Both the position numbers and the translations under genes were made by a program. Below are positions 9,981 through 58,969 of a stretch of 60,714 bases of DNA, piece after piece. Under the pieces are notes generated by a model. The model saw only the letters and a list, made by a program, of their open reading frames with translations. It was not told where the DNA came from and did not search any database. The stretch comes from a virus. Each line of letters begins with the position of its first letter. Within the stretch, counting starts at the first letter, position 1. The stretch lies in the IMG/VR virus record IMGVR_UViG_3300042890_000355, positions 1-60,714 of that record; one strand, given 5' to 3'.

Positions 9981-11147
9981 TTATTGTTGAATTGCCAACC
10001 CGGGGTACTCGCCACCAGTAGCCTTTAACCAGCCCGTTTCAGAGCCAATTTGTTTTGGTGATGAATAATTGGTTGTATTGCCTAAGCCTAATGCATATAG
10101 TGCATTTCGACCCCAAGACCAGAGCGTGCCATCTGTTTTAATAGAAACTGCTGAATATTTTCCACAAGAAACTAGCAACCAATTAGTCAGCGCACCTAAT
10201 TGTTTAGGCGAAGAATAGCTCGTTGTGTTGCCAAGTCCAAGTTGACCGTTTACACCATAACCCCAAGACCATGCTGTTCCATCTGTTTTAACAGCAAGCG
10301 TAAAACCATTTGCAGAAGTTCCAGCCGCCCCACCAGCTATAGACGACCAATTTGTTAATGCGCCCACTTGTACTGGAGATGAATTTCCATCCGTTGATCC
10401 TATACCTAGTTGACCAGCCGTATTCCTACCCCAAGACCATAACGCACCTGCGGTTGTAATACCAAAACCGCTTGCATAACCAGCAGAAATACTAAGCCAA
10501 GTAGTTAAAGAACCAATTTGTTTGGGAGAAGAATAGTATGTGCTATTGCCAAGACCAAGACGACCATCGCCGTTGTAGCCCCATGTCCAGATTGTCCCGT
10601 TGGTTTTAAGAGCTATGCAAGTGTAGTATCCAGCAGAAACATCTGACCAGTTTGTCAATGCACCTAACTGCTTTGGGGATGAATAGTATGTGGTGTTGTT
10701 TAAACCCAATTGACCTAAATTATTTCTACCCCAAACCCAAATAGTTCCATCTGTTTTGACAGCCGCACTGTGTGCGTAACCTGCGGCTATTTTTATCCAA
10801 TTGGTTAATGCACCAACTTGTGATGGGCTTGATCTACCAGTTGTGTTTCCCAATCCAAGTTGCCCAAATATATTTGCGCCCCAAGACCACAGAGTTCCGT
10901 CAGATTTAGTAGCTAGAACAAATAAGCCCCCGGGGTTTGAACTAATGGAAGACCAATTGCTTGTTGAAACTAAAACAGGAGCAGTTATAGCTGTTTTATT
11001 TCCAGTTCCAGATTGACCTTCATTGTTGTATCCCCAAGCGTATAGTTTGGGATATTGGACAGGCCAAGTCCCCGCCGCCTTAGCATTGGCTTGACTGCTG
11101 ATGTTCCAGATACCTGAGTATTGAACGCCTGTGATTGTTACTGGCAT
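9981..11147 (-). CDS. RCC1-like seven-bladed propeller tail protein A2
   Basis: 388 residues. The N-terminus (TITGVQYSGIWN ... GTWPV) is shared with the protein at 14052-15218 and probably docks it on the virion. It is followed by seven repeats of about 51 residues, each with an RCC1-type core such as LWSWGANIFGQLGLGNTT, then a Ser/Pro-rich strand (SSPKQ, SSPSQ) and an A-L-T-N-W turn. Seven units equal one complete RCC1 propeller. RCC1 is best known from eukaryotes, but propellers of this type also occur in bacterial and phage surface proteins. A receptor-binding role is inferred from the tail-operon position and the chaperone-like gene downstream. Confidence 0.85.
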   Translation of the reverse strand: MPVTITGVQYSGIWNISSQANAKAAGTWPVQYPKLYAWGYNNEGQSGTGNKTAITAPVLVSTSNWSSISSNPGGLFVLATKSDGTLWSWGANIFGQLGLGNTTGRSSPSQVGALTNWIKIAAGYAHSAAVKTDGTIWVWGRNNLGQLGLNNTTYYSSPKQLGALTNWSDVSAGYYTCIALKTNGTIWTWGYNGDGRLGLGNSTYYSSPKQIGSLTTWLSISAGYASGFGITTAGALWSWGRNTAGQLGIGSTDGNSSPVQVGALTNWSSIAGGAAGTSANGFTLAVKTDGTAWSWGYGVNGQLGLGNTTSYSSPKQLGALTNWLLVSCGKYSAVSIKTDGTLWSWGRNALYALGLGNTTNYSSPKQIGSETGWLKATGGEYPGLAIQQ

Positions 11148-11156
11148 AGTTGTCTC

Positions 11157-12281
11157 TTAAAAAGCTAAGGCAAAAGTTGACTGACCGCCAGCAGTAATAT
11201 AGCCCCAAGTGGCAAGTGATCCTACTTGTACTGGTGAACTTCTGTTAGTTGTATTATTTAAACCTAATTCACCTAAAGTGTTATTTCCCCAAGTCCAAAT
11301 GGTTCCGTCTGTTTTAGAAGCAATAGCAAAGTTTTTACCAAGCCTTACAGCAGTCCATGTAGTTAAAGCACCAACTTGTTTAGGAGAACTGTAATTGCTT
11401 GTATTACCTAAACCTAAAACGCCCGAACCACCATCTCCCCAAGACCATAATGTACCGTCAGTTTTAACAGCTAGTGCAGAATATTCCGATGCCGAAACTT
11501 GCAACCAATTAGTTAAAGCACCAATTTGGGCTGGACTGGATATACTTGTAGTATTACCAAACCCTAATTGACCATAGTCATTATTACCCCAAGCCCAAAG
11601 TGTGCCATTTGTTTTAATTGCGTAAGTGTTTTGTATTCCAGATACAACAGATGACCAATTAGTTAATGAACCGACCTGCTTAGGTGACGAATAGTTGGTG
11701 ACATTACCCAACCCTAATGCACCTGAAGTGTTGTAACCCCAGCCATACAAAGCGCCACTGGTTGTAATTGCAAAACCACCAAGATTTGCACCTGTGGAAA
11801 TTTTTGCCCAATTGGTCAAAGCTCCTACTTGTACTGGGCTAGACCTAGATACAGTATCACCAAGACCTAACGCACCTAAACTATTACCACCCCAAGTCCA
11901 AATGGTTCCATCTGTTTTTAATGCAAATGAAGCATTGTTAATGGTTGCTACAACAGACCAAGTTGTTAAAGCACCAACTTGTTTTGGAGATGAATAGTAG
12001 GTAGTGTTTCCTAATCCCAATTGGCCCGATTGATTTCTACCCCAAGCCCAAATTGTTCCGTTAGTTTTTAAAGCTAATGTGTTATACCTAGTAACAATAC
12101 TTAACCAATCAATCAAAGCACCAACTTGATTAGGAGAAGAACGAGTAGCAGTGTTACCCAAACCTAATTGACCAAATTGATTATCGCCCCAACTGTACAA
12201 ATTGTAAGTATAGATAGTTGTCTGAGCCGCCAACGGATTAAAGCCCGGCTTGTTAATCCCAGCGGCGTATCTAAAGCTCAT
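11157..12281 (-). CDS. RCC1-like seven-bladed propeller tail protein B2
   Basis: 374 residues. The N-terminus (YAAGINKPGFNPLAAQTTIY) matches that of the protein at 15220-16359 and not that of its neighbour 9981-11147. Seven RCC1 units follow, for example IWAWGRNQSGQLGLGNTT and LWSWGDGGSGVLGLGNTS. Short loops between blades differ from unit to unit while the Trp-Gly and Gly-Leu-Gly positions hold. The start overlaps the stop of the sulfotransferase-GT gene by 4 nt. It forms a B-A gene pair with 9981-11147. Confidence 0.85.
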   Translation of the reverse strand: MSFRYAAGINKPGFNPLAAQTTIYTYNLYSWGDNQFGQLGLGNTATRSSPNQVGALIDWLSIVTRYNTLALKTNGTIWAWGRNQSGQLGLGNTTYYSSPKQVGALTTWSVVATINNASFALKTDGTIWTWGGNSLGALGLGDTVSRSSPVQVGALTNWAKISTGANLGGFAITTSGALYGWGYNTSGALGLGNVTNYSSPKQVGSLTNWSSVVSGIQNTYAIKTNGTLWAWGNNDYGQLGFGNTTSISSPAQIGALTNWLQVSASEYSALAVKTDGTLWSWGDGGSGVLGLGNTSNYSSPKQVGALTTWTAVRLGKNFAIASKTDGTIWTWGNNTLGELGLNNTTNRSSPVQVGSLATWGYITAGGQSTFALAF

Positions 12282-14047
12282 GCCACTCTCCGAATAGCAG
12301 ATTTGTTGGACAGGCGGTCTTTGATCTTTTCAAACGGTGCAGTCCAGTCGCCATACACCTCTTGGCGAACCAGCTTCATGCTGTCGTAGTACGGCGTTTT
12401 CTCACCATCCAAAGCATATAAGAAGTACGGCATGATCGGAGTTACCACCCATGTTTCTACGCCCATCGCCGCCGCCAAGTGACTGACAGAAGTACAGGCT
12501 GAGATCACCAAGTCACATGAAGCCACTGCTTGTCGAGTGTCTTCCCATGACTGTAATGGTACTTGTTTTACCCAAGCTGGGCAAGCGTCTACGCCCTCAT
12601 CCCGCTGTAAAGAAATGAACTCTGCGTCAGCATCTTTCACCGCTTCAAACATCAGGTCATACGGAAAGGCTTTGTGATGCTCGTGCTCAAATTTACTGTT
12701 GCCCTGCCAGCGCAGACCGATGCGTTTCTTACGGCCTTTAATCGTTACAGGCTTCTCAAGGTAGGGCGCACCAGACAGGTCACGCAACTCTAAGCCTAGA
12801 GGAACCACAGCAGACATTCCAGACACCCAGAAGTCGTGGTAGATACCAAAGGTAGCCTCATGCTGAACAACGGCTGATACGCCTTCTACGCCTTGGAACA
12901 ATGATGCGAGTGGGCCAGTACAGGACACAACCACCTTACAGCCACGCTCGGCAATTAGTTTGGCATAGCGAATCTGGTGAATCTGATCGCCCAGACCACC
13001 TTCTAGATACAGCATGACCGTACCCTTTGTCTTACCATCCCATTGAGGTGTAGGCACATCAGGTCGAGAATTACCAAACACACCTACGATTCGTCCTCTA
13101 TCCATCAGGCTGTAGCCCTTTTGAATCTGACCTTGACGCAGGTAGTACCAGCCACGGTTATAGGCGGCTCGGTGGTTGCTAGGCTCTTCTGCTTCCAGCT
13201 TTTGAGCCAGTCTCCAGCCTTCTACAAAGTCACCCATCGTAGATGCGGCAAGCTGTAGGTCTAGGTCATGTAATTCAGGAACTGTGCGTGGACGCTCAAG
13301 CCAGAACTCAGGCTGGCAGAAAGCTGAGTAGTGGTGCTTCAGCAGATCGCGGGGGTCTTGCTTATGCTGTGCCGCCAATACAGGCTTGACATCGTGCATA
13401 CCTGCGTGACCGTGCAAGTTCTCGTCATCTTCAGCTACGCTTGAGCCATCGATGTTGTTGAAGTCGTAGGCAAATTCTGGAAGCTCAAGGAACTCATGGA
13501 TACGGGCTAACTGCGCTTTGGGGTCAGCTAACAGGTCTTCGTATTCAACAAACAGAAAGTTCTCTGGTGCGTACTCGTAGCCGTTCTGGAGGGAGATGTA
13601 GGCGGCTCGTAGGTGATCCATTAGTTGACCAGTTGCCATGAACTCGTCTAGGTCTGTGGGTTTGGCTACACGGATGAAGCTGGCGGCACAGTCAGGTACT
13701 GAGCGAACAGTGGCAATGATCTTAGGCTGACGGCCTAGCACCTGTGACATAGCACCCATGATTTGACCGATAGGCCAGCCACGGGACTTGTCGATGATGA
13801 CAGGCTTGTCAGTGTCTTCGTAGAACGCATCAATTGCACCGCGCATGGTTTGCGCTAACTTGCTTCTCTCAGGATCATTCTCGTTCAGTAAACCCGCTGA
13901 GTGCCATGTGTTCGCCAATCCATCGAGGGCGTGGACAAGCCCAGATGTGGTGGATACATGAGTCATCGGGTTCTGGTTCAAGATAGCCGCAAGGACTGTC
14001 GAGCCAGAACGAGGAATGCCAGAGAGGAAGTGCAGTGTTTTGTTCAT
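12278..14047 (-). CDS. Sulfotransferase fused to a TPR segment and GT9-like glycosyltransferase
   Basis: 589 residues from ATG 14047, chosen over an upstream in-frame TTG. Residues 1-230 are a sulfotransferase: the 5'-phosphosulfate-binding loop is FLSGIPRSGSTVL at 7-19, followed by the conserved VIIDKSRGWP region and FLFVEYEDLLADP. Residues about 255-310 contain a TPR-like repeat (HRAAYNRGWYYLRQGQIQKG). Residues about 340-589 are GT-B-like and resemble heptosyltransferases of family GT9: MLYLEGGLGDQIHQIRYAK, IGLRWQGNSKFEHEH and SACTSVSHLAAAMG. Such a fusion could add a sugar and a sulfate to one acceptor. It lies between two B-A pairs of propeller genes, which makes the propellers attractive acceptors; that is inference. 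Confidence 0.82.
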   Translation of the reverse strand: MNKTLHFLSGIPRSGSTVLAAILNQNPMTHVSTTSGLVHALDGLANTWHSAGLLNENDPERSKLAQTMRGAIDAFYEDTDKPVIIDKSRGWPIGQIMGAMSQVLGRQPKIIATVRSVPDCAASFIRVAKPTDLDEFMATGQLMDHLRAAYISLQNGYEYAPENFLFVEYEDLLADPKAQLARIHEFLELPEFAYDFNNIDGSSVAEDDENLHGHAGMHDVKPVLAAQHKQDPRDLLKHHYSAFCQPEFWLERPRTVPELHDLDLQLAASTMGDFVEGWRLAQKLEAEEPSNHRAAYNRGWYYLRQGQIQKGYSLMDRGRIVGVFGNSRPDVPTPQWDGKTKGTVMLYLEGGLGDQIHQIRYAKLIAERGCKVVVSCTGPLASLFQGVEGVSAVVQHEATFGIYHDFWVSGMSAVVPLGLELRDLSGAPYLEKPVTIKGRKKRIGLRWQGNSKFEHEHHKAFPYDLMFEAVKDADAEFISLQRDEGVDACPAWVKQVPLQSWEDTRQAVASCDLVISACTSVSHLAAAMGVETWVVTPIMPYFLYALDGEKTPYYDSMKLVRQEVYGDWTAPFEKIKDRLSNKSAIRRVA

Positions 14048-14051
14048 GTGT

Positions 14052-15218
14052 TTATATTGTTGCAATAGCCAATGCAGTATTACTTAGTGACGCTGATAGC
14101 CAGTTTGTTGCTGTACCTACTTGTTTTGGAGATGAGTAACCTGTAGTGTTGCCTAGACCAAGTTGCCCATTACTATTACCGCCCCATGCCCAAAGTGTGC
14201 CATCATTTTTTATGGCTAAAACACTATACGGGCCTTTGCCTGCATATATTTTTGTCCAAGATGTTAGTGCGCCAATTTGTTTTGGAGAGGAATAAGATGT
14301 AGTATTTCCAAGTCCTAATTGACCTTGTGCATTAGCACCCCAACCCCAAATTGTGCCGTTTGTTTTGACTGCTACAGCCCAACCGTAGTATCCAGCGACA
14401 TCCAACCAATCCGTCAATGCTCCAACTTGTTTAGGAGAAGAATAATCAGTTGTATTACCTAAACCTAATTGTCCACTACCGCCAGCACCCCATGACCACA
14501 AACCTCCACTGGTTGAAATGCCATAAGAATTAAAGTAGCCAGCATAAGTCTTGCCCCAACTTATTGCGGCTCCTACTTGTACTGGGCTTTGGATATTTCC
14601 AAAACCTGACGAACCATTCCCAATTTGGCCTTGAAATGTATATCCCCAACCCCACAAAGTGTTATCTGTTTTGACAGCTAATGTGTATTGATGACCACCA
14701 ACAACTTGCGACCAATTGGTTAAAGCGCCAACTTGTTTGGGGCTAGAGTAATAAGTAGTGTTGCTGGTTCCAAGTTGACCATAATCGTTTTGTCCCCAAG
14801 CCCACAAAGTATTATCTGATTTAATGGAAAAAGTACCATTTGAAGCAGAAGAAAAAACAGACGACCAATTTGTTAATGCACCAACTTGGACTGGGCTAGA
14901 TACGCTAGTTGTGTTACCAGTACCTAATTGTCCATAAGTATTTAAACCCCAAGTCCATAGCGTTCCGTCAGTTTTAATAGCCGCACTGCTTTGATTTCCT
15001 GCCGACACTGTTGACCAAGTTTTTAATGCGCCAACTTGTTTAGGACTGGAATAGTAAGTTGTGTTACCTAGTCCAAGCTGTCCTTGACTGTTGCGTCCCC
15101 ATGCAAGCAAGCTCGGCCCCGGCGGTACAGGCCAAGTCCCAGCCGCAATAGCGGCATTCACCTGTTGCATTGTCCAGATGCCTGAGTATTGAACGCCTGA
15201 TACGATTGTGGTTGCCAT
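14052..15218 (-). CDS. RCC1-like seven-bladed propeller tail protein A1
   Basis: 388 residues, same length and N-terminal module as 9981-11147 (VSGVQYSGIWTMQQVNAAI, GTWPV). Seven RCC1 units are present (for example LWTWGLNTYGQLGTGNTT, LWAWGGNSNGQLGLGNTT). The fourth unit is irregular, with a longer loop (YTFQGQIGNGSSGFGN), so blades differ in exposed loops. It ends 4 nt before the sulfotransferase-GT start and begins 1 nt after the stop of 15220-16359. Interpreted as a paralogue of the A2 protein produced by duplication of the B-A pair. Confidence 0.85.
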   Translation of the reverse strand: MATTIVSGVQYSGIWTMQQVNAAIAAGTWPVPPGPSLLAWGRNSQGQLGLGNTTYYSSPKQVGALKTWSTVSAGNQSSAAIKTDGTLWTWGLNTYGQLGTGNTTSVSSPVQVGALTNWSSVFSSASNGTFSIKSDNTLWAWGQNDYGQLGTSNTTYYSSPKQVGALTNWSQVVGGHQYTLAVKTDNTLWGWGYTFQGQIGNGSSGFGNIQSPVQVGAAISWGKTYAGYFNSYGISTSGGLWSWGAGGSGQLGLGNTTDYSSPKQVGALTDWLDVAGYYGWAVAVKTNGTIWGWGANAQGQLGLGNTTSYSSPKQIGALTSWTKIYAGKGPYSVLAIKNDGTLWAWGGNSNGQLGLGNTTGYSSPKQVGTATNWLSASLSNTALAIATI

Positions 15219-15219
15219 A

Positions 15220-16359
15220 TTAGTTTAACCCAACAGCATAATATTGACCTGATGATATTGATAACCAAGAAGTCAGTGAGCCAACTTGTACTGGTGATGA
15301 ATAATTAGTGGTGTTCCCAAGGCCTAAAGCGCCAATATTACCAGCGCCCCATGCCCACAAAGTACCATTATTTTTAATAGCGTATGACGCAAGATAGTTT
15401 GGGCCGCCCGGCCCCAGCCGCGCCCAAGTAGTTAGAGCACCAATTTGCTTTGGAGAAGAGTAATAGGTTGTGTTTCCAAGCCCTAAACGACCATAAGTGT
15501 TTTGACCCCAAGACCACAGTGTGCCGTCTGTTTTAATGGCAAACATTGTATATAGACCAGCGCAAACATATAGCCAGTTTGTTAATGATCCAACTTGTTT
15601 AGGCGAAGAGTAGTTGGTAGTGTTTCCAATACCCAAAGATCCGTATGCATTATTACCCCAAGTCCAAAGAGTTCCATCGGTTTTTATGGCAGAAGTTATA
15701 TACCAACCTGCTGACACCTGAAGCCAGCTAGTCAAAGCTCCAATTTGTACAGGAGAATTTCTTTGAGTAACAGTTCCATCACCTAACTGACCTTTGTTGT
15801 TGTAGCCCCAAGTCCAAAGAGTTCCATCTGTTTTAGTTGCAATAGTATGATAAAACCCACCAGAAATACTTAACCAATTAGTTAATGCACCCACCTGTTT
15901 AGGGGAAGAATAATCAGTTAAATTTCCCAAACCTAAAACACCATGAGCACCGTATCCCCAAGCCCACAAAGTGCCGTCTGTTTTAATAGAGTGGACAACA
16001 TTGTACCCAGATGATATACGCAACCAATTAGTTAATGTTCCAACTTGTTTAGGCGAAGAATAAGCTGTTGTATTACCAAGACCCAATTGACCAAAAGCGT
16101 TATAACCCCATGACCACAAAGTGCCATTAGTTTTTGTGGCAACTGTAGCTCTATACCCAGCATTAACAGAAGACCACCCATCAGTTGTATTCCCAACTTG
16201 CTTAGGGCTGGAATAATTTGTGGTATTACCCAATCCTAATTTTCCAGATTGGTTGTAACCCCATGTATTAAGGTCATAGTAAGTGGTCGTGGTCTGTGCC
16301 GCCAGCGGGTTAAACCCCGGCTTAACAATACTCCCCAAGAACATTTGTCTTATAGACAT
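15220..16359 (-). CDS. RCC1-like seven-bladed propeller tail protein B1
   Basis: 379 residues. The N-terminus (FLGSIVKPGFNPLAAQTTTT) is shared with 11157-12281 and is a probable virion-attachment peptide. Seven RCC1 units follow, with cores such as LWSWGYNAFGQLGLGNTT. Each unit carries a Ser/Thr-dense strand of the form NTTxYSSPKQ. There are 28 such units across the four propellers. It is the first propeller gene of the block, downstream of three other tail or decoration genes. Confidence 0.85.
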   Translation of the reverse strand: MSIRQMFLGSIVKPGFNPLAAQTTTTYYDLNTWGYNQSGKLGLGNTTNYSSPKQVGNTTDGWSSVNAGYRATVATKTNGTLWSWGYNAFGQLGLGNTTAYSSPKQVGTLTNWLRISSGYNVVHSIKTDGTLWAWGYGAHGVLGLGNLTDYSSPKQVGALTNWLSISGGFYHTIATKTDGTLWTWGYNNKGQLGDGTVTQRNSPVQIGALTSWLQVSAGWYITSAIKTDGTLWTWGNNAYGSLGIGNTTNYSSPKQVGSLTNWLYVCAGLYTMFAIKTDGTLWSWGQNTYGRLGLGNTTYYSSPKQIGALTTWARLGPGGPNYLASYAIKNNGTLWAWGAGNIGALGLGNTTNYSSPVQVGSLTSWLSISSGQYYAVGLN

Positions 16360-40773: not shown

Positions 40774-41580
40774 CGCAACGAGGCTTAGACCTAGCTTCAA
40801 CAAGCCAACCCTTTGATGGGTATCGTTCGCGTCCTCACCCACCACATCGCTCATCCAGTACTTCCATCCGATCTCCTTTGCGACACGTTCTCCTGTCCCG
40901 CTTTTATCGTTGTCCGCAATAAGGAGTCCATCCGGCAAGCCTTGAGCAACCTTCTTCATGTTGCCCGCACTGAAGCAAACATGAATGGTGTACCTCCGAC
41001 TCATCTTCTTAAGAGCCGCTTGTATAGACAAAGCCGTAGCGTATCCTTCACACAGAATATGCACACCCTTGTTATCAATTACTAACTCTGCGTTACTGGT
41101 GCGCTGACCATAGAGAAACTTCTTTGAGCCATCCGATTCGATTAGCTGACATCCAACAAGATGCCCATCCACCCGCATCGGTACGACCAAAGTCTTTTTA
41201 CCTTCATGCCCCCAGATCATGTCCTCTGCGCCTTCAAACCCCTTGGCATTTAAATACTCATGCTTGCCTAAGACTGTCTGACTTAGTATGAAAGCAGCCC
41301 GTTTAACTGCATCCGCTTGGTCAGCCATCCGCTTAGCGTCAGCTTCCCGCATGTCCCGAGCAATCTTCTTTCTGTCCACCTTGATAGGTGTCTCTGTCTG
41401 CCACAAAGATACCTCTGTATCCGTTGCATGGTTCTGCACAAAGCCATGATCTCCCATGAACTTGACCGCCCCGTTGCGCTTCCTTGGATGGTCATCCGTT
41501 GGGTATCTTCTCCATACTCCGATAGGCGGAGGGATGTCGATCAGGATGCCATGCGCCCTGCAAAATGAAATGAATTCCAT
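40756..41580 (-). CDS. Toprim-domain primase-like protein
   Basis: 274 residues. The C-terminal half is a Toprim domain: GVHILCEGYATALSIQAALK supplies the conserved Glu, and GLLIADNDKSGTGERVAKEI the DxD-like motif. The N-terminal part is a reduced primase-type domain with a basic helical linker (KIARDMREADAKRMADQADA). It resembles plasmid/phage TraC- or P4-type Toprim primases, here without a helicase domain; the helicase is the next gene. Likely makes primers for phage replication. Confidence 0.75.
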   Translation of the reverse strand: MEFISFCRAHGILIDIPPPIGVWRRYPTDDHPRKRNGAVKFMGDHGFVQNHATDTEVSLWQTETPIKVDRKKIARDMREADAKRMADQADAVKRAAFILSQTVLGKHEYLNAKGFEGAEDMIWGHEGKKTLVVPMRVDGHLVGCQLIESDGSKKFLYGQRTSNAELVIDNKGVHILCEGYATALSIQAALKKMSRRYTIHVCFSAGNMKKVAQGLPDGLLIADNDKSGTGERVAKEIGWKYWMSDVVGEDANDTHQRVGLLKLGLSLVASLKLV

Positions 41581-43055
41581 TACCGCATCCTCCTGATTGA
41601 CTTGACGTATCTGTTGATGCCATCTTGCACAAACTTAGAGACCTTCGCATCCGGCATGACTGGTCTATCCTCTAACCCGCGAGGCCAGACTCCGAACTTC
41701 TCTCGGTACACATTAGCGGCTCGGCCTTTAGACCATCCGTTATATTTCATGTACCAGTTCATCATCGACCACCACATCTGCTTGTCGTCACGGGTCATAG
41801 TTCCTGTGAGTTCTTCCATCTCACCCGCTACCGCCTCGACCTTGGTCTTTCTCTGTCGTATATGTCCACATGACTTGCACATATCAGAGTTTAAAGGCCA
41901 TAAAGCACCACACGCAGGACACTTAGCCAACTCTTTCTCTTTCTCAGTGGGTTCTTTCTTAGTCTTTTCCGCCCCGTCATCTAGTTCACTAACACCACCA
42001 CCGAACACCTCATCCCAATTCTCACGGAAGCGCAGATAGTTACCCGAATGATCTAGCCACACGGCAAACTCTTTACCCTCATGACCACGCATGACCCGTC
42101 CCATCTGCTGAATGTGGGAGGACAATGACTTAGAGAACGGACGAGCCGAGACTCCGATCATCACATCGGACACATCGAATCCCTTGGTGAGAATGTCAGT
42201 AGCAATCAGGCCATTGATCTCTGTGTCCGGCTTGCTGAACTCCTCGATCACATCCTTCTTATACTGATCGTCATCCCGATAACTGATATTGATAAAGTTA
42301 TAGCCACGATCACCAAACTTCTGCGCCAAGTCAGCACCATGAGCTACACCGGAACAGAACACAATCGTCTTTGCCGGCTTACCAAAGATCTCATGGGTCT
42401 TTTTCTCCCACTCCACCACAATATCCCCTGTGATCTGCATGCCACGCTTGGTAGTCTCAGTAGGAGACCACTCGCCCGCCACCTTCTTAGCCCCCTCCAT
42501 GTTTATTTCTTTGGCAATAAATACTTTTAGCGGGACAAGCACCTTGTCATCTACTAAATCCCTTGTCGTTACAGTAGAGACCACATCCTCATAGACCTTG
42601 GCTAGACCCTTGGTGAATGGCGTAGCACTCAGACCTATGACTCTGATCTCTGGATTGTTCTTGATGAATTCAACTGTTGCCGCCCGTGTCTGGTGGGCTT
42701 CGTCAATGATGAGTAGGTTAAGGTTAGGGAACTCATCCCTTCTCTCCAACGTCTGAGCCGAGCAGATTTGTATCTTCTCCGATGGTAGATTACGCCAGTG
42801 ACCTGACTGTAAAACTCCATGCTCAATCTTGTACTTGTCTAGCCGTTGACTGGTCTGATCGCACAGAATGATCCTGTCCAAGACCATTGCCGCCCGATTA
42901 CCCTTCATCTTTGTGGCCTCAAGCAAAGCAATAGCCATCTCTGTCTTGCCTGCTCCTGTCGGGGCATAAAGCATCAAGCTTTTCTTGCCCGATGCAAACC
43001 CCTCACGCAATGCCTTCAGCGTAGCCTCTTGATAAGGCCGTAGTTCTAATCCCAT
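41580..43055 (-). CDS. SF2 DEAD/DEAH-box helicase with zinc finger
   Basis: 491 residues from ATG 43055 (GGAG 7 nt upstream). Walker A is APTGAGKT at 31-38, followed by LLIIDEAHQTR (DEAH), GLSATPF (motif III) and, in RecA domain 2, INGLIATDILTKGFDV and QQMGRVMRG (motif VI). A Cys4 zinc finger (CPACGALWPLNSDMCKSCG) lies near residue 395-415. Architecture matches phage replication helicases of the UvsW/RadD-like group. Its stop touches the primase start. Confidence 0.88.
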   Translation of the reverse strand: MGLELRPYQEATLKALREGFASGKKSLMLYAPTGAGKTEMAIALLEATKMKGNRAAMVLDRIILCDQTSQRLDKYKIEHGVLQSGHWRNLPSEKIQICSAQTLERRDEFPNLNLLIIDEAHQTRAATVEFIKNNPEIRVIGLSATPFTKGLAKVYEDVVSTVTTRDLVDDKVLVPLKVFIAKEINMEGAKKVAGEWSPTETTKRGMQITGDIVVEWEKKTHEIFGKPAKTIVFCSGVAHGADLAQKFGDRGYNFINISYRDDDQYKKDVIEEFSKPDTEINGLIATDILTKGFDVSDVMIGVSARPFSKSLSSHIQQMGRVMRGHEGKEFAVWLDHSGNYLRFRENWDEVFGGGVSELDDGAEKTKKEPTEKEKELAKCPACGALWPLNSDMCKSCGHIRQRKTKVEAVAGEMEELTGTMTRDDKQMWWSMMNWYMKYNGWSKGRAANVYREKFGVWPRGLEDRPVMPDAKVSKFVQDGINRYVKSIRRMR

Positions 43056-43103
43056 ATTGTTTCTCCAGCTACCCACACATTAGCCTGTGGGCTTAGGCTT
43101 CTT

Positions 43104-43862
43104 TTACTTCTTAAGTTGTCTCTGCATCGCTGCGATTTGCTTCTTCATTGCCGCATTCTCATTGAGCAATGTGTCCCGACTGATACGGGTTGACTTCAAC
43201 TCTAACTCCAGTATACGGATGTCCTCACGCAACTGGGCAATCGTGTTCTCAGCCAGCTTCTTCTCTGATTCGTCAGCCGCATAAACTGCCACGGCCAATC
43301 GGTCTTTCAGCTTGTCGTTCTCATCTGCCAATGCCTTGATAACATCACCGCTTTGGTCGTGCTTTGGTTCTTCCTCTGGCTTCTCATACTTAGCCTTGCG
43401 CTCGAACGTCTTGCCGTTGCGAGAAACTTTAACAACCTCTGGCTTCACACCACCACGGACTGACTCGACTAAAGTAACAGACACACGACACGCCTTAGCT
43501 ATCTCGGTACTGTTCCAGAACTGCCATTCAAAGTCATCAAGCATAGCCTGAACTGCGTTGCGCTTGTCCTCGTTAGATCTGTGCCGGCCATTCTCTGCGT
43601 TCACGCTAAAGGATCTGAGGATCGCATCCCTCAATGTGCCGTTGACAACCTGTACATCAATGTCCTTTAAGCCTGCCTTCTGGTGGGCAAAGTATCGGTG
43701 GTATCCGTCAGTCAAGTAATACTTAATGCCGTCATAGTACACAAGCACCGGAGGAAACCGAGCACCATTCTTTAGCGACTCTGCGTATTCATCTACCGCC
43801 TCTTGAATAATCTTGACCCGTGACTGCGTACCGCCATCAATAGTTAGTTGGTTAAGTTTCAT
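43104..43862 (-). CDS. ParB-like nuclease-domain protein
   Basis: 252 residues from ATG 43862. The N-terminal ParB/Sulfiredoxin-type domain has FPPVLVYYDGIKYYLTDGYH with the key DGYHR. It is followed by a helix-turn-helix region (NSTEIAKACRVSVTLVESVR) and a C-terminal coiled coil (150-252). Phage ParB-like proteins act in replication control or host takeover. The start overlaps the upstream 51-residue gene by 4 nt. Confidence 0.8.
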   Translation of the reverse strand: MKLNQLTIDGGTQSRVKIIQEAVDEYAESLKNGARFPPVLVYYDGIKYYLTDGYHRYFAHQKAGLKDIDVQVVNGTLRDAILRSFSVNAENGRHRSNEDKRNAVQAMLDDFEWQFWNSTEIAKACRVSVTLVESVRGGVKPEVVKVSRNGKTFERKAKYEKPEEEPKHDQSGDVIKALADENDKLKDRLAVAVYAADESEKKLAENTIAQLREDIRILELELKSTRISRDTLLNENAAMKKQIAAMQRQLKK

Positions 43863-44014
43863 TTGCCCTGTCCTTTCATCGTCCATCCAATTAAAAAGTA
43901 ACACCACTTAGTGTTTATGTTTATGTTTGTGTATCTCTTTCCATTCCAAGCATCAGCAATGCTTCTGCCCTTGGTGGCCATGTAAGACTCAAACGCCTGT
44001 CGTGCATCGTTCAT
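43859..44014 (-). CDS. 51-residue protein
   Basis: ATG 44014 to TGA 43861-43859, ATGA-coupled on both sides. The sequence (ARQAFESYMATKGRSIADAW, then NGKRYTN and CYFLIGWTMKGQGK) resembles short phage proteins found in operons of ssDNA/replication genes. Unknown function. Confidence 0.5.
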   Translation of the reverse strand: MNDARQAFESYMATKGRSIADAWNGKRYTNININTKWCYFLIGWTMKGQGK

Positions 44015-47779: not shown

Positions 47780-47817
47780 GGCTTCTCCTACCTGATAAAA
47801 ATATTTTAACTTACCTG

Positions 47818-47846
47818 TTGCAAAATTAAAATGTAGCAGGTATAAT
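47818..47846 (+). promoter_or_regulatory. Rightward promoter of the recombination operon
   Basis: TTGCAA (47818-47823), 17-bp spacer, TATAAT (47841-47846). The extended -10 shares GTAGCAGGTATAA with the leftward promoter near 46670. Predicted start about 47853. Confidence 0.75.
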
Positions 47847-47852
47847 CAGTTC

Positions 47853-48342
47853 CAACCTATCTGGTTTAATGTGGTCTGGCAAGTTATGGCGGGACGAGGC
47901 GGTGCCCGGTCGGGCATGGCAGGGAACTGGTAACAGTCGATAGGGAATTAGCAATAGTTCTCCTTCGAGTGTTAGGCACGGTCGGGCAAGTCTCGGCACG
48001 GTGAGGAGAGGCGGGGATAGGCAGGGTACGGCACGGAAAGGTGCGGCAGGGAGCTAGAAATAGTCGATAGGGTATTGGCAACAGTACCACTTCGAGTGTT
48101 AGAGGAATGGCTGGATGCGGTCAGGCGAGCAAAGGTCAGGTTTGGAGGGGTAAGGCAAGGGCTGTTTACAGCGGGAAGTTATTTAACAAGATAACTTTTC
48201 GGTGGTAACACCACTAGGTTGGGTCTGGTGTGGCAAGGCGAGGAATGCTTAGGAAGGGTCTGGCAAGGGCTAATGTAGCGGCTATTAGATTGGCAACAGT
48301 CTTATGGTCGATGCAAATTGTGCATCAATTAAAGGAAACAAA
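47853..48342 (+). ncRNA. Long structured leader RNA with repeated GNRA hairpins
   Basis: 490 nt between the promoter and ATG 48343. Two related units at about 47921-47975 and 48047-48102 each fold as two hairpins with GNRA loops joined by TCGATAGGG and followed by TTCGAGTGTTAG. Hairpin 1 is ACTG-GTAA-CAGT (47926-47937) and GCTA-GAAA-TAGT (48053-48064). Hairpin 2 is AATTA-GCAA-TAGTT (47946-47959) and GGTATTG-GCAA-CAGTACC (48071-48088). Stem bases change in a pair-preserving way. A third, split unit has GGTG-GTAA-CACC (48201-48212) and GATTG-GCAA-CAGTC (48288-48301). A last hairpin GATGCA / TGCATC (48309-48325) precedes the ribosome site. GNRA loops exist only on the plus strand, matching the promoter. 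Confidence 0.65.
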
Positions 48343-48912
48343 ATGAAATCTATTAAAGTAAAACTCTCAGGCTCATCTGCTTTACTCATGCACTCTGATC
48401 GCTTTGCGAACCCGTTAGACCCACTAACTAAGGCTCACAAAGAACTGACAGGCAAGCGCAAGAAAACTGACGATGACCATATCGCCATCGCTAGAAGTGA
48501 ATTCATTGGTGGCTGTTATTGGAATGAAGACACTGGCTTCTTTATTCCTGCACAAAACCTAGACTCATGCCTGATCGCGGCGGCTAAGCTTCAAAAGCTT
48601 GGCGTTAAATTCAAGCAGGGCGTACAGGTATTGGAAGACGAGCTACCCATCGACGGCTTTAAGTCCGTCACTCCCGAGAAGCTTTGGGAAAACCCAAAGA
48701 ACGTAGATGCCCGTGGCGTTAAGGTAGGCATGGCCAAGATCATGCGCTACCGCCCCATCTTTCGCAACTGGTCACTGTCTGCCACTGTGATGGTGAATGA
48801 AGATGTAGTTAACCTCAATGAAGTTAAGAAAGCTTTGGTTGACGCTGGCAATTTGATTGGCTTGGGTGATTACCGTCCCCGCTTTGGCCGCTTTGATGTG
48901 GAGTTTGCATGA
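48343..48912 (+). CDS. Conserved phage protein at head of the recombination operon
   Basis: 189 residues from ATG 48343 (AAAGGAAAC upstream). Conserved-looking blocks: LLMHSDRFANPLDPLTKAHK, FIPAQNLDSCLIAAAKLQKL, KIMRYRPIFRNWSL and GLGDYRPRFGRFDV. I recognise it as a frequent phage protein next to Erf/exonuclease genes, but without known function. The closing GLGDYRPRFG glycine-rich strand recalls RAMP-type folds; that is speculation. It is governed by the long leader RNA. Confidence 0.7.
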   Translation: MKSIKVKLSGSSALLMHSDRFANPLDPLTKAHKELTGKRKKTDDDHIAIARSEFIGGCYWNEDTGFFIPAQNLDSCLIAAAKLQKLGVKFKQGVQVLEDELPIDGFKSVTPEKLWENPKNVDARGVKVGMAKIMRYRPIFRNWSLSATVMVNEDVVNLNEVKKALVDAGNLIGLGDYRPRFGRFDVEFA

Positions 48913-49391
48913 GCGACAATCCAAAACTATTTCCCGCTTGGAAGCAGGCAGTTAAAACTTTATTGGACAGCGGCCTTACATACGGAAGCGTACTCAAGCG
49001 CAGTTACATTTCCGAGTTGTGTGATGTGCCAAAGCCAGTAGACATTGACGATGTTCGCAGGTATGACCTTGAAGTGCTTCGCTGCATCACAGAGATCAAA
49101 GACATTCTGCTAACAGCCCACTGCATGCTAATGGTCAGTGACCATGCAGGCAACTACATCATCATCGAGCCTGAGTCACAAACTCAACACGCTGTTGATG
49201 CAGGTGTTAAAGCAATCAGTCGAGAGATGAAGCGTATGGCTATGGGCGTGAGCTTTACCAAGACTGATTTACTCACAGACGAAGGCCGTAAGAAAAACGC
49301 AGATGCTCAGGCAAAGATCTCAAAGCTGGCCGGAATGCTAAGCATTGAGAAGCGTGAGCTTCAGCGTATATCCGACAGGAGTCAGCCATGA
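48909..49391 (+). CDS. Protein of unknown function in recombination operon
   Basis: 160 residues. The N-terminus (NPKLFPAWKQAVKTLLDSGL) is an opening I associate with phage proteins encoded beside Erf and exonuclease. The C-terminal half is helical and charged. ATGA overlaps on both sides. Possibly a regulator or exonuclease partner. Confidence 0.6.
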   Translation: MSDNPKLFPAWKQAVKTLLDSGLTYGSVLKRSYISELCDVPKPVDIDDVRRYDLEVLRCITEIKDILLTAHCMLMVSDHAGNYIIIEPESQTQHAVDAGVKAISREMKRMAMGVSFTKTDLLTDEGRKKNADAQAKISKLAGMLSIEKRELQRISDRSQP

Positions 49392-53609: not shown

Positions 53610-53616
53610 TTTTTCT
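53597..53616. repeat. 20-bp palindrome between convergent genes
   Basis: AGAAAACTTTTAATTTTTCT. It holds the TAA of the HNH gene (53607-53609) and overlaps the TAG of the 1784-residue gene on the other strand (53615-53617). It might act as a bidirectional terminator although no long U tract follows. Confidence 0.9.
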
Positions 53617-56600
53617 ACTTCATTGACTTACGAACATCTTCAGCTTGTTTAGCTAGCATGGAGATCAACTCTTTCATCTGGTCAATCTGCTCTCGCTTGG
53701 TAGCCCCGTCCATACCCGTGTCTGCTGTGACCACTTGAATCTGCTTACGGATGTTAGCCATCTGCTTAGATGTCTGGGTGTACATCTTCTGTAATGCAAT
53801 CTTGTCACCCTTCTCCTCATAAATCTGCTGGACTTTATCTATCTCACCAATCTCAGAGTAATGACGCATATCCGCAAAGGCTTGCTGAATCTGTTTGTTG
53901 TTCTCGTAGAACGAAGTGGTGTAGAAAGATTGGTTAGCGGGAAGAGACTTAACAAATCCAAGACTTGCTCTATCCATCCACTTAGTATCTGGGTACTCAC
54001 CCTCTTTAAACGGGGCAACAGCGTACATAGAAGTGGTAGCTGCTGTGCCGCCGAGCCAGCCGAAGTAACCCTTAATAGCATAGTCCACCTGAACTGGGCT
54101 TAACTCTGCTTTTTCTGGCAAAGCTATGTTTAATACAGGAGCCAAAGCCAAAGCTAGTGGACTGGTGTTCTCTGTCTTACGCTCAGCTTTAGACAAGGCT
54201 TCCATACCCGCAGTCTCAATAGGTGAGCCGGTGAAGCTATCCTTATTGGAGTACAGATCAACAATAGGTTTGAAGATCTGCGGCAACGGGTTCATCGCAA
54301 ATGTATCCCACACCATACGGCTAAGGGCATCTGTGAATTGCTTACCTTCTGCATTCTCATCAAAGATCTGCTCGGCTGTACGCTCGGCAATAGTTCCAAG
54401 AGCACCAATCTCAAATGGCTTAGGAATACGAAGAGCCGCTTCCATGCCGGGTAACTTGATCCACCAGAAGTTATCCCGATCCCAGTTGTCCCGCTTTTGG
54501 TACTCTTCGTCGTCTTTAAATCCATAGTACAAAGCAAGAGAGGCAAGGCACACAGCACCAGAGATGATAGAGAACGCTTCTGCTTTCTTCTTATCACTCA
54601 GATCCAACTCTTTACCTGTCATTGAGTTGTACAGGACACGGCCAGTAGGTACGATGCCATCACGACCAAGCTTGTACAGACCTTGAATACGGGCATTCAT
54701 GAACGGTACGACCTGAGTCAAGTAACGGAACGCACTCCATGAACCTTGCATAGAGAAGTCCATCAAGTCGCGAGCTTCGTAAGAGGCTTGTAAGTGAGAT
54801 AGACCCTGCTCTCGTAGCTGGTTGTAAAGCGCCATGCGGTTAGCAGCTTCAGACTTGTTACCCGCATCTTCGTATGCAGACCATAGCTTAGCCAAACCAG
54901 CTTTGATCTTGTCTGGTGTATCTAGAATGTCGGCCTCTTTAACACCTTTGGCCAGTAATCTTTTAATTAACTTTGCCTGATTACCTTCATAAGCGGTACC
55001 AAAGTTAAAGATAGCACCACCGGCCAGAGCAGAAATGTGTGCAGGGTTGTTCTTATCTGTGGCTACCCAGCCCTCAACCACGTTGGCAAAAGGATTCTTC
55101 TTCAAGCCGGACACGGCCATAGCCTGAACAGAATCACGGAACAAGTTGTTTACTTTAAACGCAGGAGAGATGGTAACGCCGTACTGCAAGATGTTCTTGA
55201 AGTCACGAGACACATCAAGGAACTTAGACTTTGGCCCCATGTATCCGATAGAGGTGATCGACTCAAGCAAGAGAGGATCTTTAATGGTGTAGTAAACAGG
55301 GTTGCCGTCTTCCATAACCTTTACGGTATCTGGGCCGGCTTCTGTGGCTTTCTCTACGGCATCTAGCTTCTCGGCATCCTTGACCGTAGTCACAGCGGCT
55401 TGGTTCTTCATAGACGCAGACAGGATATGACTCCAGTTACGCAGAGTGTTTTCCATCAAGTCACCGAATGGTCGCTCTCCTCCGCCTTTCAAAGCTTTAG
55501 AGAACTGCTGACGGGTCAAACCTGCTGAAGTCTGAGCACCCTGAAGATCACCGTCTTCCATCTGACGATAGAAAGGAATGTAGTAAATATCCCGAACAAA
55601 GTTGTCGTAGCTGAACTGGTCAATTAGACCTTGATCTAAAGCCACATCCAAGACGGAACGGTTTAGATTATTCATATCTTTAAGGACAGCAGCATAGACC
55701 TCAGCACGGGGCTTGCCGTTAATCGTACCTTCAGACAACTGCTTGCGATTGGCCACCATGTAGTCCATGTCAGGACTGCGTGATTTCTTTTCTGGAGGTA
55801 AATTAGATTCACGGTTCAACGCAACCCACATCTGGTAGCGGTCTACCTCAGAGCCAACAGGCTTGAGTGTCTCAATCAGACCCTTGGTGTTGGGTTTAAT
55901 GTTCAATGCACCGCCGTCGTTAAAGACATGACCGTTAAACAAGATACCCTCAAGAGCGCCGTCAACAGTCTTAGACAGACGGGCTTGCATGTAGCCGACA
56001 GGCGAGTAGTCTTTGATCGTTCTGTACTGGTCTGCAATACCCTGAGCCAGACGTTGCCAGAAACGATCCTGCATGTCAGTAATCTTCTCAACAATCGTTC
56101 TAGTCTGTGGCTTGAAGACACGGTTAGCCGCATCTGTAAACTCTTGGTTTACACCCTGCATAGTCTCAGCGGCAAGAGGCTTTTGTTTCTGTAAGGCAGT
56201 AGAGACTTTCTGCTTTACCTCGCTAACAGACTTAGGTATCTCCATCTGGTCTGTCATCTCTGAGTAGTCAACTTCACCCTTATCAACTTTTACACCTTTA
56301 GGCTGTTTAGTCTGAGCAAGCCTGTCTACCAAGTTCATAACTTCGGTAAGAGCGTTAACATCTTTAATACCAAGCAACTCTGCAACCATACGAGTAAATG
56401 CTGTCCATGCACTGCGACGACCGCCATAGGAGATTTGCATTAACTCATATTGGAACTCTGGATTAGTCATTGCCTCGGCAGTGAACTCACGCTCGTTAGT
56501 CAGGCCGTAGAAGTCTTTACCTTGACGGCGCAGTTCTTTCTTAACGTGCTTGTATAGCTTTTCAATCTGTTCAACAATAGGTTTCTGACGCTCAGTAGGA

Positions 56601-58969
56601 TAACGCTGTGCCTTAGAGATCAATCCATGTAGTGTTTCGTGAGCGTTTGTGTGCTCATCGCCAGCGTAAGCCTTAGCCATCTGAATGGAGTCATCAGCGT
56701 AACGGTACACGCCAGCCACACCAGCACCTACGTTACCCGGCTTCTTCAGCTTAATCTTTGTAGCTACGCCACGACCCAACTCACCAATGCGCCGAATAGC
56801 TGGGTTCTTACTCTTAGCCAAAGTCTCAGCTAATTGTGCAAAGTTTCCAGCGTCATTAGCAGCACGAACCTCTAAGTTGTTTGATGTAATAGGCATCCTT
56901 GCTTTGAATTCAGCAAGGTTTTTAGGCATCTCAGTACTTGGAGTAGGTGGTTCAACTTCTACAGGAGGAGGTTCCACTGGAGGGGGAGGTTCAACCACAG
57001 GAGGTCTACCTGAAGTACCGGGAGCAGGAGGTTCCATCTCACCATATACCTGAGTAGCAGGCTTGGTAACAGGAGGACGCTCTGGGCCTTCTGGTGTAGG
57101 TGTTAGCGTAGCACTAACAGGCAATGTGCGATCACCACGAGGCTTACCAACTTCAGCAGAAATAAACCAAGGTTCACCGTTACCTTGATAGTTCAACGGC
57201 AAAGGTTTGCCGGCACGTTGCTCGGCGGCAATAGCAGCTTCTACATCTTCACGAGTAACGATACCAGACTCAAAGTCCTTAACCAAACGCATAGACGCAG
57301 GCGTATTAGTACGTCGAGCAATCTCAATGTATGCGTTAACTGGGTCAATGATAGGCGTGGACTCAGGTTTGTTAATAGCCGTGCCTTCCAAGCCTTTAGT
57401 AAACTTAACTGGTACGTCCAAAGATTGAATAGCAAACTTACCCGCATCTGTTGGGTGAGGAACAATAGTCAGGCTATTAGGATCACCGCCTTGGTTTTGA
57501 AGCATGTTACGCATCACCAACAAACGGTTCTTTGCGGCACGTTCTTCAAGGGGACGGTTGTCTACAATCTTAGGTACAGGTGTGTCTTCCACGGTCACAT
57601 CTGCTGGCATAACGCCGGGAGTTTTAGATGACGCACCAGTAGGAAGTCCTGCCTCTAAACGCAAGCGATCAATCTCAGCTTGCTTGGCTTCCAACTCTGC
57701 ACGAGGTGTAGCTTGTGGCATCTGCTCATTCAAGCTAGGCTGTACCACGGGAGTAGAAGCGGCGCGAGCAGCCTTCTCTTGTGGTGATTCAGGAAGCGTA
57801 CCAGCAAGAGCCTTTGCTTCTTCATCGGCTTTTTGCTGGAGCATTAACAGACGCTGACGATTAGCTTCCTCAGATGTCAGCATCTCAGGAGTAGTTTCTT
57901 CTGGACGGGTAACACCAGTAATAGCCTCAACTTGCTGTTGCAACGCAGGCTGAACAACAGGTTGCTCTGGAGGAGGAGGTGGTGGTGGCTCAATCTCAGG
58001 AGCAGCAGGACGACGAGCCAAGCCAGCCGCACCACCCAAACCTACACCACCGATAGTGGCCATAGCCGCAGCTTCACCCAGACCTTCAGTCAAACTCTGC
58101 TCAGGTTTAACCTGTTGCATGGCCAAGTTAGAAACAAACTTACCGCCAACCTCTTCAGGAATCTCACCCACTGTCTCACCAACAGCAGTACCGCCAGCCG
58201 TTCTAAGACGACCAGTAAGACCAGCCGCTCCTTTACCGGGAACACCTGCCAATACTTCCTCAAGCTGACGAGCACCGGGTAGGCGCTGAGCCAAGAGAGA
58301 AATAACACCGGCGGAAGCACCAGCTTGACGGGCTAAAGTTAAAGCACCCTGAGCGGCTTCAGTATCAGAAGCACCTTTACTCTTAAGTTCTTTGTAGATG
58401 TTCTCGTATGCGTTAGCACCTACGTCAGCACCTTGCTGTACACCACCAGCACCAACCGCGCCGGAGACAGCCGCTTTACCAGCCGCAGCTTCGCCCGCAC
58501 CCAGACCTCTAGCCGCCATACCAACGCCACGAGCAGCGCCAAATGGGACTAATAGTTGTGGAGCTTGCTCAGCCAAGAATGTAAGGAGCAGTGCAGGATC
58601 TTTAACAGTCTCACCAAGTGCAGTTCCAAATGCTTGGAACTGACCTTCCTTAGCAGACTCAGCAATCTTCCTTGCCCGCTCAGCCTCACGAGCCTTAAGC
58701 CCAGCAGACTTCATCTCCTCAGCATACTTCTGGAGATCTTTACCAAGCTCCATAGAAGTACTGTCCTGCATGTTGCCAGTCACCAAACCAGCAAGCTGGC
58801 CGGGTAAAGCAACAAGAGAACCTATACCACCTACGACACCAGCACCGATGTCCTTGGTAGCTTCCCCAAACGTTCTCTCTGTAGTAGCAGGAGCTTTAGC
58901 TTTGGGCTGGAATTTTGACCATGGCCCCTCTTGGGCAGCATAAGATTCCCAAGGTTTATTATCGGCCAT
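53615..58969 (-). CDS. Giant virion-associated polyvalent protein with Zn-metalloprotease motif
   Basis: 1784 residues. Order: short start (DNKPWESYAAQEGPWSKF), a Gly/Ala-rich region to about 320, Pro-rich linkers (EPPPPPPPEQPVV and a second near 650-690), a metallopeptidase-like domain with HETLH at 777-781 and EREFTAEA at 826-833 (candidate third ligand), then an alpha-helical C-terminal half (about 900-1784) with FRYLTQVVPFMNARIQGLYK, typical of LPD38-type polyvalent or injected phage proteins. Such giants are packaged and ejected into the cell. It is 6 nt downstream of the truncated 578-residue gene and convergent to the recombination operon. Confidence 0.75.
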   Translation of the reverse strand: MADNKPWESYAAQEGPWSKFQPKAKAPATTERTFGEATKDIGAGVVGGIGSLVALPGQLAGLVTGNMQDSTSMELGKDLQKYAEEMKSAGLKAREAERARKIAESAKEGQFQAFGTALGETVKDPALLLTFLAEQAPQLLVPFGAARGVGMAARGLGAGEAAAGKAAVSGAVGAGGVQQGADVGANAYENIYKELKSKGASDTEAAQGALTLARQAGASAGVISLLAQRLPGARQLEEVLAGVPGKGAAGLTGRLRTAGGTAVGETVGEIPEEVGGKFVSNLAMQQVKPEQSLTEGLGEAAAMATIGGVGLGGAAGLARRPAAPEIEPPPPPPPEQPVVQPALQQQVEAITGVTRPEETTPEMLTSEEANRQRLLMLQQKADEEAKALAGTLPESPQEKAARAASTPVVQPSLNEQMPQATPRAELEAKQAEIDRLRLEAGLPTGASSKTPGVMPADVTVEDTPVPKIVDNRPLEERAAKNRLLVMRNMLQNQGGDPNSLTIVPHPTDAGKFAIQSLDVPVKFTKGLEGTAINKPESTPIIDPVNAYIEIARRTNTPASMRLVKDFESGIVTREDVEAAIAAEQRAGKPLPLNYQGNGEPWFISAEVGKPRGDRTLPVSATLTPTPEGPERPPVTKPATQVYGEMEPPAPGTSGRPPVVEPPPPVEPPPVEVEPPTPSTEMPKNLAEFKARMPITSNNLEVRAANDAGNFAQLAETLAKSKNPAIRRIGELGRGVATKIKLKKPGNVGAGVAGVYRYADDSIQMAKAYAGDEHTNAHETLHGLISKAQRYPTERQKPIVEQIEKLYKHVKKELRRQGKDFYGLTNEREFTAEAMTNPEFQYELMQISYGGRRSAWTAFTRMVAELLGIKDVNALTEVMNLVDRLAQTKQPKGVKVDKGEVDYSEMTDQMEIPKSVSEVKQKVSTALQKQKPLAAETMQGVNQEFTDAANRVFKPQTRTIVEKITDMQDRFWQRLAQGIADQYRTIKDYSPVGYMQARLSKTVDGALEGILFNGHVFNDGGALNIKPNTKGLIETLKPVGSEVDRYQMWVALNRESNLPPEKKSRSPDMDYMVANRKQLSEGTINGKPRAEVYAAVLKDMNNLNRSVLDVALDQGLIDQFSYDNFVRDIYYIPFYRQMEDGDLQGAQTSAGLTRQQFSKALKGGGERPFGDLMENTLRNWSHILSASMKNQAAVTTVKDAEKLDAVEKATEAGPDTVKVMEDGNPVYYTIKDPLLLESITSIGYMGPKSKFLDVSRDFKNILQYGVTISPAFKVNNLFRDSVQAMAVSGLKKNPFANVVEGWVATDKNNPAHISALAGGAIFNFGTAYEGNQAKLIKRLLAKGVKEADILDTPDKIKAGLAKLWSAYEDAGNKSEAANRMALYNQLREQGLSHLQASYEARDLMDFSMQGSWSAFRYLTQVVPFMNARIQGLYKLGRDGIVPTGRVLYNSMTGKELDLSDKKKAEAFSIISGAVCLASLALYYGFKDDEEYQKRDNWDRDNFWWIKLPGMEAALRIPKPFEIGALGTIAERTAEQIFDENAEGKQFTDALSRMVWDTFAMNPLPQIFKPIVDLYSNKDSFTGSPIETAGMEALSKAERKTENTSPLALALAPVLNIALPEKAELSPVQVDYAIKGYFGWLGGTAATTSMYAVAPFKEGEYPDTKWMDRASLGFVKSLPANQSFYTTSFYENNKQIQQAFADMRHYSEIGEIDKVQQIYEEKGDKIALQKMYTQTSKQMANIRKQIQVVTADTGMDGATKREQIDQMKELISMLAKQAEDVRKSMK

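Follow-up and report, generated by a model that had tools for sequence, protein, structure and literature searches.

Evidence for an array of four tandem VIPR guide RNAs in the leader of a phage early transcript

VIPR, described in a 2026 preprint, is a relative of CRISPR and a phage weapon that represses competing phages (PMC13142463). Its guide RNAs (vrRNAs) consist of 9–16 YNNGG repeats with a conserved GGY and a hypervariable NN, followed by a folded 3' tail; they are bound by the Vipr protein, an ancestral RAMP, with which they co-purify (PMC13142463). Double-stranded DNA is recognised via the NN dinucleotides, with one base skipped, usually at the codon wobble position (PMC13142463). The type II members include those of Escherichia phage SUSP1 and of a Pseudomonas fulva prophage (PMC13142463).

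Here, we analyse a leader in a viral DNA of 60,714 nt (IMG/VR record IMGVR_UViG_3300042890_000355), the whole of which is referred to below as the window. The leader (47853–48342) begins just 3' of a promoter and runs up to the ribosome-binding site of the open reading frame (ORF) that starts at 48343. With a probability of about 0.93, we read it as an array of four tandem VIPR guide RNAs that is transcribed with vipr and vap1 and silences rival elements. This reading is based on the period of the pentamers, the four plus-strand arrays, the match of the adjacent protein to the Vipr profile, the vap1 homologue, and the in-frame matches of guides 2 and 3, as well as on the like architecture upstream of nearly all vipr homologues. 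The features are collected in Table 1.

Table 1. Features of the VIPR locus (positions in the window)
Feature	Position	Strand	Details
Early promoter TTGCAA-17-TATAAT	47814–47846 (-35 47818, -10 47846)	+	Overlaps inverted repeat
Inverted repeat CCTGTTGC-N11-GTAGCAGG	47814–47840		Overlaps -35 of the VIPR promoter; from alignment of relatives and sequence
Two weaker pentamers ahead of vrRNA1 tract	47863–47872	+
vrRNA1 repeat tract	47873–47922	+	10 pentamers; NN code CT AA AT GG GA GG CC CG AT AG
vrRNA1 structured tail	47923–47974	+	Two helices; alternative AACA/UGUU helix
vrRNA2 repeat tract	47970–48049	+	16 pentamers, the first overlapping the end of tail 1; NN code TA AC CG AA TC AC GA GA GG TA AG AC AC AA GC AG; codes 1–9 spell YTR[KN]ST[DE][DE]G (serine recombinase)
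vrRNA2 structured tail	48050–48101	+	Type as tail 1
Predicted guide 2 target site (absent from the window)			TANACNCGNAANTCNACNGANGANGG
vrRNA3 repeat tract	48104–48158	+	11 pentamers; NN code AT TG GC CA GA AA CA TT GG AA AA, read as [IM]WA[HQ][DE][KN][HQ][FL]G[KN][KN] (Enc34-type ssDNA-binding protein)
vrRNA3 structured tail	48159–48212	+	Three-hairpin type, 3' end GGTGGTAACACC; fold z -6.6 (stretch 48159–48216)
vrRNA4 repeat tract	48217–48266	+	10 pentamers; NN code TG CT GT AA GA AT TA AG CT AA
vrRNA4 structured tail	48267–48326	+	Terminal type, adjoins vipr ribosome-binding site; fold z -4.1 (stretch 48267–48330)
vipr	48343–48912	+	189 aa, phrog_4652; RAMP-fold, putative guide-binding protein by homology
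vap1 homologue	48909–49391	+	phrog_5926

The G-rich elements of the leader recur with an exact period of 5 nt, GG–GG coincidences numbering 32, 34 and 30 at lags of 5, 10 and 15 compared with about 11 ± 3 in dinucleotide shuffles. In the whole window there are four GGY pentamer arrays on the plus strand (scores 26–27), each inside the leader; the sole other stretch to attain the array threshold, at 58423–58472 on the minus strand, scores 22 of 30, well under these. A first-pass annotation of this DNA had reported a good promoter at 47818–47846, two hairpin units plus a split third, and ‘GGCAAGG-like elements’. The promoter is indeed there and the elements are real, although they are in fact GGY-NN pentamers arranged in tracts before the hairpin units; the count of units has to be corrected to four, with units 3 and 4 having other types of tail. 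The informative feature is thus the pentamer tract that precedes each hairpin unit, rather than the hairpins. The repeat counts of vrRNA1 to vrRNA4 (10, 16, 11 and 10) lie inside the range of 9–16 that characterises VIPR, and several framework triplets in these guides depart from GGY (GAC, GTT, TGC and GGA). The palindrome that overlaps the promoter is a probable repressor operator; a comparable inverted repeat also lies ahead of the arrays in L002, L003 and L034 (L numbers being our designations).

Each repeat tract is followed by a structurally conserved 3' tail, as is the case for described vrRNAs, and the fold z-scores of the tails range from -4.1 to -6.6. The first two hairpin units (47918–47975 and 48045–48102, 58 nt each) are 83% identical. 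In related phages, 24 distinct homologous units have pairing in 96.9% of cells and double changes at 8 of 15 pairs, so the repeated hairpins with compensatory changes proposed earlier stand, and the homologous leaders, which might have lost the pairing, keep it. The covariation score of these units is 0.449, as opposed to 0.174 ± 0.017 for shuffles and at most 0.109 for slid partners. A second helix (AACA/UGUU, columns 10–13 with 48–51) overlaps the first and covaries as well, so the tail would be either a short pseudoknot or a pair of alternative folds. GNRA loops, taken at first as the hallmark of the units, were dropped as a defining feature because loop sequences vary among homologues, which have UAAA, UUAC and triloops.

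The pairs that covary in the tails are of RNA type, a conserved G-U included, and this bears on the idea that the leader acts at the level of DNA, for example as a recombination site or a loading site for the annealing protein of the exonuclease/Erf module. The strand-biased, G-rich arrays do adjoin recombination genes, but the covariation counts against a DNA element, and the arrays go with vipr, also in Pseudomonas aeruginosa prophage LESphi2 and in SUSP1, neither of which has the same recombination genes downstream. We consider this explanation extremely improbable.

The identity of the first gene is well supported by homology: the family profile of the protein starting at 48343 matches the solved ‘SUSP1 Vipr protein’ (36pp) with an E-value of 1.1e-58, and its sequence alone does so at 7e-47. 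According to an AlphaFold2 model (pLDDT 89.6), which in Foldseek resembles Csm3/Cas7-type CRISPR effector subunits, and of which the best 50 PDB matches listed are every one a chain of a CRISPR effector complex, the protein is predicted to have the Cas7/Csm3 RAMP fold. The window has in common with class 1 CRISPR-Cas (Cas7/Csm3 plus crRNA) the RAMP fold and a guide with a structured handle; a further likeness is that bases are kept from pairing at regular steps (PMC13142463). It differs in having no CRISPR repeats, a single small RAMP protein, and a non-contiguous NN guide. A repeat search of the leader found no CRISPR array of identical repeats and unique contiguous spacers, the guides being gapped pentamers, and there are no spacer-acquisition genes among the neighbours scanned.

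The product of 48909–49391 is homologous to that of the gene beside SUSP1 vipr (BLASTP, 20% identity over 139 residues, E 1e-7) and also to that of the gene adjoining vipr in LESphi2. A vap1 accessory gene next to vipr is a mark of type II, to which the locus would be assigned by its gene content. Genes for an exonuclease and Erf follow downstream, and the position of the early promoter places the guides, vipr and vap1 on what would be one early transcript, ahead of these two genes.

This arrangement also invites a reading of the leader as a cis-acting element that regulates the recombination operon, be it a riboswitch, an attenuator or an antitermination element; the first-pass annotation had suggested such a regulator. 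The 5' leader is long and structured, the early promoter appears to be regulated, and the vrRNA4 tail adjoins the ribosome-binding site. Against it stand the number of units, which varies from one to six across relatives; the unpaired tracts, which hold a code with in-frame matches elsewhere; the nature of the first gene, Vipr; and Rfam, which gave no match at the gathering score for the window and 13 related loci, and noise only in a permissive search. A DNA similarity search of phage records likewise returned chance matches only. Cis-acting control is therefore unsupported, and we deem it very unlikely: what varies from unit to unit looks like trans-acting guides whose sites are found in other mobile elements, next to these lies the gene for the guide-binding protein, and no family of Rfam fits. 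What survives of the earlier suggestion is that the promoter would give rise to an RNA that is structured and binds protein, as supported by homology to the vrRNAs that co-purify with Vipr.

Recognition by NN dinucleotides with a 1-nt skip, the hallmark of VIPR guides, was found computationally for guides 2 and 3. With this skip, the codes TA AC CG AA TC AC GA GA GG of guide 2 give Tyr-Thr-Arg-[Lys/Asn]-Ser-Thr-[Asp/Glu]-[Asp/Glu]-Gly. This is the catalytic-serine motif of large serine recombinases, which would make these enzymes the target of guide 2. When viral contigs were searched for the exact 16 bases, at least 120 stretches matched; among the matches listed, all 80 loci have the site in frame, the skip falling on the wobble base and the translation being A[VI]YTRKST[DE][DE]G, and Pfam identifies the three target proteins that were scanned as large serine recombinases (Resolvase and Recombinase). 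With the bases unchanged and the skip widened to 2 nt, a control search of these contigs gave 13 matches. We infer a Burkholderiales host only from a Rhodoferax metagenome-assembled genome that carries a vipr 78% identical to that of the window. In 251 genomes of its family, the 18-base site of guide 2 occurs 13 times in 11 genomes (about 0.03 matches expected, as estimated by simple base counting) and the reversed pattern not once; all 13 sites in this probable host family fall on the serine recombinase motif, again with the skip at the wobble position. Codes 10–16 of guide 2 have no match, a search past the motif having given one out-of-frame match, and no correlation between the third framework base and the skipped target base is apparent by eye. 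In its 3' half (48031–48049), guide 2 is similar to the corresponding half of vrRNA2 of L034, which is otherwise a different guide (AC AA GC), hinting at recombination within guides; guide 2 may be a chimera.

For guide 3, 45 of 68 viral matches are in frame and encode WAQDNQFGK or a motif very like it, and the three target proteins scanned are Enc34-type ssDNA-binding proteins, of which this guide can be read as addressing a conserved motif; its site was absent from all 121 host-family genomes searched. Guide 1 has one viral match, out of frame; of its 31 loose matches in host genomes, 12 were examined and share no phage gene. The 27 viral matches of guide 4 belong mostly to two groups of near-identical phages, and there are 12 loose host matches. 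The 16-base core of guide 4 is in frame at the N-terminus of a Cas4-like phage exonuclease (LV[KN]DIYSL) in the L251 and L259 groups, with the flanking codes unmatched, and this exonuclease is a weak lead as a possible target. Guides 1 and 4 are thus without a convincing target among the sequences searched, the target collections being incomplete. Sites for any of the four guides were absent from the window itself, and a target search inside related loci found none.

It might be argued that the array is partly decayed, with guides 2 and 3 functional and guides 1 and 4 relics. The missing targets would fit, as would the three framework triplets of guide 1 that depart from GGY and the unmatched 3' half of guide 2. 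However, the incompleteness of the target collections offers another reason for the missing targets, and 9 of 10 codes of guide 1 are kept in L004–L007 and L012 despite differing framework bases, which suggests selection. Partial decay is accordingly an unlikely reading.

Homologues of vipr were found in 43 viral loci, nearly all with one to six pentamer units upstream (none in L042), and a gene-independent pattern search revealed further pentamer arrays in other phages. Over 113 extracted tracts, a few of which are spurious, the framework positions are G 0.91, G 0.85 and Y 0.82, and the remaining two positions are near random. Among serine-recombinase guides, seven distinct sequences vary at framework positions 2 and 3 and never at the NN positions, which is what a code carried by NN would predict; the set was chosen by at least six of eight matching codes, a choice that somewhat favours NN invariance. 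The guides of the window are shared one by one (guide 1 recurs in L004–L007 and L012, guide 2 in L003 and guide 3 in L002), and this singly shared distribution suggests that guides may be exchanged between phages as modules.

A second guide recurs in relatives (L016, L018, L021, L025, L028 and others) and corresponds to HGFRSTFRDW on the opposite strand. Of 121 genomes, 14 contain its 20-base core, 16 times in all, compared with 0 for the reversed control; all ten sites translated encode HGFRSTFRDW in ORFs of 411–459 aa, and Pfam identifies the three of these ORFs that were scanned as tyrosine integrases. Guides with matching sites in serine and in tyrosine integrases imply that both kinds are recurrent targets in the clade; these two guides were picked for recurrence among relatives, guides 1, 3 and 4 having been tested as members of the window.

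The window phage would thus be a further VIPR member. It shares with the type II systems of SUSP1 and P. fulva the Vipr protein (E 1e-58) and an adjoining vap1 homologue, GGY/NN pentamer vrRNAs with a folded 3' tail, and the 1-nt skip on the wobble base, with targets in other mobile elements. It differs from them in the sequence and fold of its tails, in a framework relaxed towards GGH, and in having integrases among its targets. In SUSP1, one vrRNA lies upstream of vipr and three downstream, whereas in the window all four are upstream as one leader. LESphi2 has a vipr 48.7% and a next gene 28.7% identical to those of the window, with pentamer arrays upstream of vipr as in the window, but its guides, tails and downstream genes differ; its VIPR locus (L110, OQ594955, 5001–6073 and upstream) encodes proteins annotated as hypothetical. 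The words ‘integrase’ and ‘recombinase’ are absent from the main text of the preprint (PMC13142463), and guides aimed at integrase motifs do not figure there.

Elsewhere in the window, on the minus strand, at least three consecutive ORFs within 9981–16359 (9981–11147, 11157–12281 and 14052–15218) show similarity to phage families of the RCC1-like ‘regulator of chromosome condensation’ kind and, less strongly, to tail proteins; they would form a paralogous beta-propeller cluster, perhaps of receptor-binding or diversified tail proteins. On the same strand, the giant ORF at 53615–58969 (1784 aa) contains an LPD38 polyvalent-protein domain, and a ParB-like protein (43104–43907) adjoins a DEAD/ResIII-type helicase (41580–43076).

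In the mechanism that we propose, the early promoter would give one transcript with the four guides, vipr and vap1, and the array would presumably be cut into vrRNAs of about 100 nt, each a GGY-NN pentamer tract with a folded 3' tail. RAMP-fold Vipr subunits would be expected to assemble on the pentamers and to present the NN dinucleotides to double-stranded DNA, with a pairing that skips one target base per step, the skipped base being the codon wobble position. The bound complexes would then silence, at the level of transcription, genes that rival phages and other mobile elements carry.

Support for VIPR so far comes, to our knowledge, from one preprint alone, and the window puts its non-contiguous code to an independent test in nature: in a phage distinct from the Escherichia phage and the Pseudomonas prophage studied before, two guides decode, the wobble base being skipped, to conserved motifs of genes found in other phages and mobile elements. 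Since only codon positions 1 and 2 enter the code, one guide could serve against many proteins of a family; the decoded guides also suggest a strategy of aiming at the active-site motif of integrases, from which the target could not escape by synonymous drift. We consider it somewhat probable that the guides of this clade are family-wide weapons, in which a wobble-skipping guide on an invariant catalytic motif, such as YTRKST of serine integrases or, in relatives, HGFRSTFRDW of tyrosine integrases, would cover many members of the family instead of a single competitor, and which would circulate among phages as exchangeable modules.
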